5,375 bases of DNA, from positions 1 to 5,375 of the forward strand of contig JALVYZ010000013.1 in assembly GCA_027037705.1 (NCBI GenBank). The letters run 5' to 3'. This DNA comes from a bacterium (GTDB taxonomy: Bacteria > DYJV01 > JALVYZ01). Numbering within the stretch: the first letter of the stretch is position 1; each line of letters opens with the position of its first letter. The translations under genes and the position numbers were made by a program. The notes below the pieces were generated by a model. That model did not search any database and was not told the origin of the DNA. It saw nothing but the letters and a program-made list of their open reading frames with translations. This document shows positions 634-1,554 of this stretch, in pieces.

Positions 634-1554
634 TTATTGTAAGTCAATTTTTAATTCTAAATCATTTATCATTTCAAAGTCATCTTCTATTTTTCTACCT
701 TTTGTTGTTAAATAATTTCCAATCATTACTCCATTAGCACCAGCAGAAAAAATTAAAGGTTGTAATTGTCTTAAATTATATTCCCTTCCTCCACAAATCC
801 TTATATCTTTATTTGGAAAATTAATTCTAAAAAATGCTATTATTTTTAAACATTCTATAGGTGTAAGTTCATTTTTATTTTCAAGTGGTGTCCCTTTTAT
901 TGGTGTTAAAAAATTTATTGGCAATGAATCAACATCAAGTTTTTTTAGAGTTTCAGCAAGCTCAATTCTGTGTTCCCAGCTTTCTCCAAGTCCAAAAATA
1001 CCACAAGAGCAAGTATAAAAACCCATCTCTTTTGCTGCTTCAACCATTTTTATATCTTCTTCATAGTTATGAGTGGTGCAAATTTTTGGGAAAAATGACC
1101 GAGAAGTTTCTAAATTGTGATGAAATCCAGTTACCCCAGCCTCTTTCAATTCTTTTAAAAATCCTTTTTCTACTATCCCAATAGAAACACAACATTTTAA
1201 AGAAGTTTCTTTCCTTATTAATTCAATTGCCTCTAAAATTTTTCTCTTTTCTTCCTTAGTTTTAATTCCTTTTCCACTTGTAACAATTGAAAATCTTTCT
1301 GATTTTTTATCTAATTTTTTAGCAAATTCTAAAATTTCTTCTGAAGATTTTAAAGAAAAAGTCTCTATATCTGTTTTGTAAAATGAAGATTGGGCACAAA
1401 AAGCACAATTCTCTGAACATTTTCCAGATTTTGCATTAATAATTGAACATGTTTTAATTTCACTTTTTCCAATTTTTTCTTTTATCTTTTCAATTTCATA
1501 AAAAATTTTGAATAATTCTTTTCTATTAGCTTTTTTAATTGAATCAATCTCCAA
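634..1554 (-). CDS. bioB: Biotin synthase, radical SAM enzyme, probable anaerobe (Type II-like) variant
   Basis: Last step of biotin synthesis: inserts sulfur into dethiobiotin by radical SAM chemistry. The 306-residue protein has the SAM-cluster motif CSENCAFC (Cys46, Cys50, Cys53), then YKT (59-61), HHNLETS (145-151), GIFGLGE (185-191), NFLTPIKGTPLE (214-225) and IRICGGRE (251-258), all diagnostic of BioB. Compared from memory with E. coli BioB, Cys122, Cys182 and Arg252 match the auxiliary-cluster ligands Cys128, Cys188 and Arg260, but the Cys97 position is Ser89 (ERFSIVTSG). Extra cysteines sit at 121, 184 and 254. This fits the BioB type reported for obligate anaerobes with an auxiliary 4Fe-5S cluster; that placement is inference. 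It is shorter than E. coli BioB (346 aa), lacking its C-terminal tail. The start is TTG at 1554-1552, supported by a strong Shine-Dalgarno seven bases upstream, and it overlaps the end of pilB by 11 bp. Confidence 0.96.
   Translation of the reverse strand: MEIDSIKKANRKELFKIFYEIEKIKEKIGKSEIKTCSIINAKSGKCSENCAFCAQSSFYKTDIETFSLKSSEEILEFAKKLDKKSERFSIVTSGKGIKTKEEKRKILEAIELIRKETSLKCCVSIGIVEKGFLKELKEAGVTGFHHNLETSRSFFPKICTTHNYEEDIKMVEAAKEMGFYTCSCGIFGLGESWEHRIELAETLKKLDVDSLPINFLTPIKGTPLENKNELTPIECLKIIAFFRINFPNKDIRICGGREYNLRQLQPLIFSAGANGVMIGNYLTTKGRKIEDDFEMINDLELKIDLQ

Follow-up and report, generated by a model that had tools for sequence, protein, structure and literature searches.

Which auxiliary cluster donates the sulfur in a biotin synthase that lacks one of the cysteines holding this cluster in Escherichia coli BioB? 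The question is raised by the bioB gene of the window (the whole stretch of DNA that was analyzed, 5,375 nucleotides; Table 1). The original prediction had placed a serine at the position of Cys97 of the E. coli enzyme and had taken three additional cysteines (Cys121, Cys184, and Cys254) as the mark of a different cluster, in line with the Type II BioB of obligate anaerobes, and of a strictly anaerobic host.

Table 1. Features of the bioB locus; positions refer to the window.
Feature	Position	Strand	Remarks
bioB, biotin synthase, 306 aa	634..1554	-	TIGR00433, AlphaFold model, fold matches 8vdw, 8vcw, and 1r30
bioF, N-terminal 204 aa, cut by contig end	3..614	-	Directly downstream of bioB
Radical SAM motif C46-x3-C50-x2-C53 (CSENCAFC)	1396..1419	-	Invariant in 152 of 152 homologues
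Cys36 (E. coli Ser43), strand 1	1447..1449	-	Putative auxiliary-cluster ligand; Cys in 8vdw and 8vcw
Ser89 (E. coli Cys97 position)	1288..1290	-	Alignment
Cys121-Cys122	1189..1194	-	Codons 1192-1194 (Cys121) and 1189-1191 (Cys122); Cys122 = E. coli Cys128
Cys159 (within ICTTH; Ile165 in E. coli), loop following strand 4	1078..1080	-	Cys in 8vdw and 8vcw
Cys182 and Cys184	1003..1011	-	Codons 1009-1011 (Cys182) and 1003-1005 (Cys184)
Arg252 (E. coli Arg260) and Cys254, RxCGGRE motif	793..801	-	Cys254 codon 793-795

The bioB locus and its host

The bioB gene begins with a TTG codon and shares 11 bases with the 3′ end of pilB; bioF comes next, resulting in the gene order pilB-bioB-bioF. The incomplete bioF product matched TIGR00858 with an E value of 1.9e-74 across profile positions 2-188, and stayed under the full-length cut-off because it is truncated. 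The order bioB-bioF is also kept in a relative of the same order (L033). The contig of this relative (DYJV01000064.1; 34% G+C) is titled “Candidatus Methylomirabilis sp.”, a label that may be wrong given this G+C content and a lineage that forms a small phylum of its own among the genomes used, where only two genomes (G000 and G001) represent the phylum of the window.

The structure of BioB was predicted by AlphaFold with high confidence (pLDDT 96). As its fold is common to HydE and PylB, the gene might encode a BioB-like radical SAM enzyme acting on another substrate; this is highly improbable, considering that the protein scored 372 bits with the curated BioB equivalog model TIGR00433 (cut-off 225), that bioF adjoins bioB in an order conserved in the relative, and that bioD is present in the genome, albeit apart from bioF and bioB. 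In the draft genome, which is 93% complete, no match exceeded the cut-off of the bioA model. The best match below the cut-off is flanked by ruvB-like and argF/argG-like genes and resembles ArgD, and the second-best is HemL. Thus, the DAPA step may be absent from the draft, or it may be carried out by another enzyme.

Several POR genes and the lack of a match for haem-copper oxidase (COX1) in the host's draft genome point to an anaerobic lifestyle. However, the same genome contains the cytochrome bd oxidase genes cydA-cydB beside a gene for an Rrf2-like regulator (G000:C229; L209 813-3616), which is why strict anaerobiosis of the host is not established.

Residues around the auxiliary cluster

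The BioB of the window was aligned with the E. coli enzyme (1r30), with the solved enzymes of two anaerobes, Veillonella parvula (8vdw) and Blautia obeum (8vcw), and with 20 homologues. As the 1r30 chain carries a 23-residue tag, E. coli numbers are given here as chain numbers minus 23. Around the residues in question, the alignment was locally gap-free and unambiguous (window/E. coli: RFSIVTSG/RFCMGAAW, CCVSIG/ACMTLG, TCSCGIFGLGE/VCSGGIVGLGE, and RICGGRE/RLSAGRE), and it bore out every equivalence of the original prediction: Ser89 corresponds to Cys97, Cys122 to Cys128, Cys182 to Cys188, and Arg252 to Arg260. Hence, within the ligand set of the Type I [2Fe-2S] cluster (Cys97, Cys128, Cys188, and Arg260), only Cys97 is replaced, and no other cysteine could be placed at its position in this alignment. 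The three additional cysteines are likewise present, where E. coli has Ala127 (Cys121), Gly190 (Cys184), and Ser262 (Cys254), but two more, Cys36 and Cys159, had been overlooked.

How widespread these residues are was assessed in 152 homologues (after dereplication, 68 without and 20 with Cys97), which were gathered by a profile scan of genome contigs after a scan with the single protein had given no matches. Cys36 was found in all 68 dereplicated sequences without Cys97, a count biased, as are all Cys36 counts among the 80 relatives lacking Cys97, by the fact that one of the two search patterns of the profile scan demands Cys36; Cys159 was found in 56 of the 68. Neither residue is exclusive to proteins without Cys97, as Cys36 also occurs in 11, and Cys159 in 10, of the 20 dereplicated sequences that keep it. 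The overall number of cysteines was dismissed as a signal, because the core of the window's BioB has 11, close to the average of 9.7, and 50 of the 152 homologues reach or exceed 11.

Could Ser89 simply take the place of Cys97 as an oxygen ligand of an E. coli-like [2Fe-2S] cluster? Ligation by serine is possible in principle, as in the auxiliary cluster of lipoyl synthase (PMC11138216), and Cys122, Cys182, and Arg252 are all retained. Yet, about half of the 80 relatives without Cys97 have glycine at this position, which is incapable of ligation (40 Gly, 31 Ser), and serine is also found there in both solved enzymes from anaerobes, so that this interpretation is very unlikely. The BioB of anaerobes uses a [4Fe-5S] cluster instead (PMC11138216; PMC11099021), and Ser43 of E. 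coli, the counterpart of Cys36, is among the residues around its [2Fe-2S] cluster (PMC11099021). The likeliest ligands, judged from the alignment, would be Cys36 and Cys159, together with Cys122 and Cys182.

We thus consider it very probable that the window encodes a Type II-like biotin synthase whose second cluster is likely [4Fe-5S], with ligands from this set of four cysteines. In such an enzyme, Cys46, Cys50, and Cys53 would bind the radical SAM [4Fe-4S] cluster, which would cleave SAM twice and thereby activate C9 and C6 of dethiobiotin, while the second cluster, located inside the barrel, would donate the sulfur. With serine in place of the Cys97 ligand, this auxiliary cluster is most likely not the [2Fe-2S] cluster of E. 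coli but of the kind reported for anaerobes, presumably held by cysteines out of Cys36, Cys122, Cys159, and Cys182.

Additional cysteines and ligand variation in the family

The notion that Cys121, Cys184, and Cys254 build the cluster was not supported in this form. None of the three is present in the solved enzymes from anaerobes. Cys184 is unique to the window's BioB, all 151 other homologues having glycine, and Cys121 was found in only two of the 152. Moreover, residues 120-124 lie on one strand of the predicted structure; if Cys122 faces into the barrel like its E. coli counterpart, Cys121 should face out of it, an orientation derived from strand parity, not from atom distances. Both residues are probably incidental.

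Cys254 is a different matter. It occurs in 99 of the 152 homologues, which amounts to genuine conservation within a subgroup, but both solved enzymes from anaerobes have alanine at this position. As only one residue separates it from Arg252 at the end of a predicted strand that both share, the two side chains likely lie on one face, and in its subgroup Cys254 probably also lines the pocket of the auxiliary cluster. It might even be a ligand itself, taking over from Arg260 in a subtype with the RxCGGRE motif whose coordination is unlike that in B. obeum and V. parvula. The distance to Arg252 fits with this, as does the frequency of Cys254 (46 of the 68 dereplicated sequences without Cys97) and the fact that Arg252 is kept in only 30 of the 99 homologues with Cys254, compared with 34 of the 53 without it. 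Nevertheless, such a role appears doubtful: besides its absence from both solved enzymes, seven sequences that keep Cys97 also have Cys254, and the window's BioB retains Arg252. Replacement of Arg260 by Cys254 was rejected as a candidate: the raw counts favor it, but the tree yielded only three independent, well-supported contrasts, without a trend, and the window has both residues. That the RxCGGRE enzymes are a subtype whose sulfur-donor cluster is held by other ligands than in E. coli or in the two enzymes solved from anaerobes can be proposed only tentatively. The same applies to the idea, put forward within this reading, that ligands may possibly migrate between barrel strands in the wider family, for example to Cys87 where Cys122 has been lost in Geobacter-type enzymes.

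Variation at these positions was also seen elsewhere. BioB of Geobacter/Desulfuromonadales (L037, L042, L049, L062-L065, and others) lacks the equivalents of both Cys97 (Gly) and Cys128 (Ser/Ala) and has Cys254 and a cysteine at the position of E. coli Arg95 (residue 87 of the window's BioB), the ligand set apparently being shifted. Cys87 and Cys122 are almost mutually exclusive, occurring together in three of the 152 homologues. In BioB sequences labeled Nitrospirota (L082, L088, L093, L104, L109, and L110), features of both types are combined, as Cys97 is kept along with Cys36, Cys122, Cys159, Cys182, and Cys254.

One homologue (L131; G076:C39:5045-5971) contains a single in-frame TGA (L131 2062) exactly at the codon for Cys182 (E. 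coli Cys188), and a stable hairpin (−18 to −20 kcal/mol) comes right after it. This codon might specify selenocysteine at a ligand position of the auxiliary cluster; a sequencing error or a pseudogene is possible as well. ARAGORN detected no selenocysteine tRNA in the ∼1.56 Mb covered of the 4.8 Mb genome, where only 15 tRNAs were found, and Rfam gave no match in L131.

Comparison with solved biotin synthases

By sequence and by fold, the window's BioB is closest to the V. parvula enzyme, followed by that of B. obeum and then by that of E. coli. Identity was 42%, 39%, and 29-30%, respectively; phmmer scores were 272, 226, and 156 bits, and Foldseek TM scores 0.95, 0.92, and 0.91. The corresponding VIA Z values were 42.8 (rmsd 1.4, 305 residues aligned), 41.5 (1.7, 301), and 38.4 (2.0, 298). 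The assignment to Type II, with a cluster other than [2Fe-2S], is supported by the serine at the Cys97 position, by Cys36 and Cys159, which are shared with both solved enzymes from anaerobes, and by an identity and a predicted fold closer to these; the part of the original argument built on Cys121, Cys184, and Cys254 is not supported in its original form. The tree separates the types less clearly. Its deep branches are weak, with 8vdw and 8vcw across a weak split from the window's BioB, so that no well-supported Type II clade emerges from it. Sequences with Cys97 are scattered over several places, including the Nitrospirota-labeled enzymes with all five other cysteines; the division into two classes by Cys97 is thus not clean on this tree.

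The BioB of the window is an ordinary new member of the already known anaerobe-type biotin synthases. With it, this group gains a deep-branching lineage that is poorly sampled; mild novelty lies only in the conservation of Cys254 within a subgroup and in the plasticity of ligands across the family. Around the sulfur-donor cluster, the cysteines vary more than a division into two types would suggest, so that specific ligand-swap tests become possible.

Compared with Type I BioB from E. coli, the window's enzyme has the fold, the radical SAM motif, and the equivalents of Cys128, Cys188, and Arg260 in common, but it differs by Ser89, Cys36, and Cys159, where E. coli has Cys97, Ser43, and Ile165. 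Both Type II enzymes share the absence of a cysteine at the Cys97 position, and all four auxiliary-pocket cysteines common to them are present in the window's BioB: Ser89, Cys36, Cys122, Cys159, and Cys182 correspond to S106, C52, C138, C175, and C198 in B. obeum and to S145, C91, C178, C215, and C238 in V. parvula. The B. obeum enzyme is without the three extra cysteines, with alanine at the Cys254 position and LAAGR instead of the CGGRE motif. The V. parvula enzyme also shares Arg252, but it has isoleucine, glycine, and alanine in place of Cys121, Cys184, and Cys254, respectively, and an extra cysteine of its own, Cys179.
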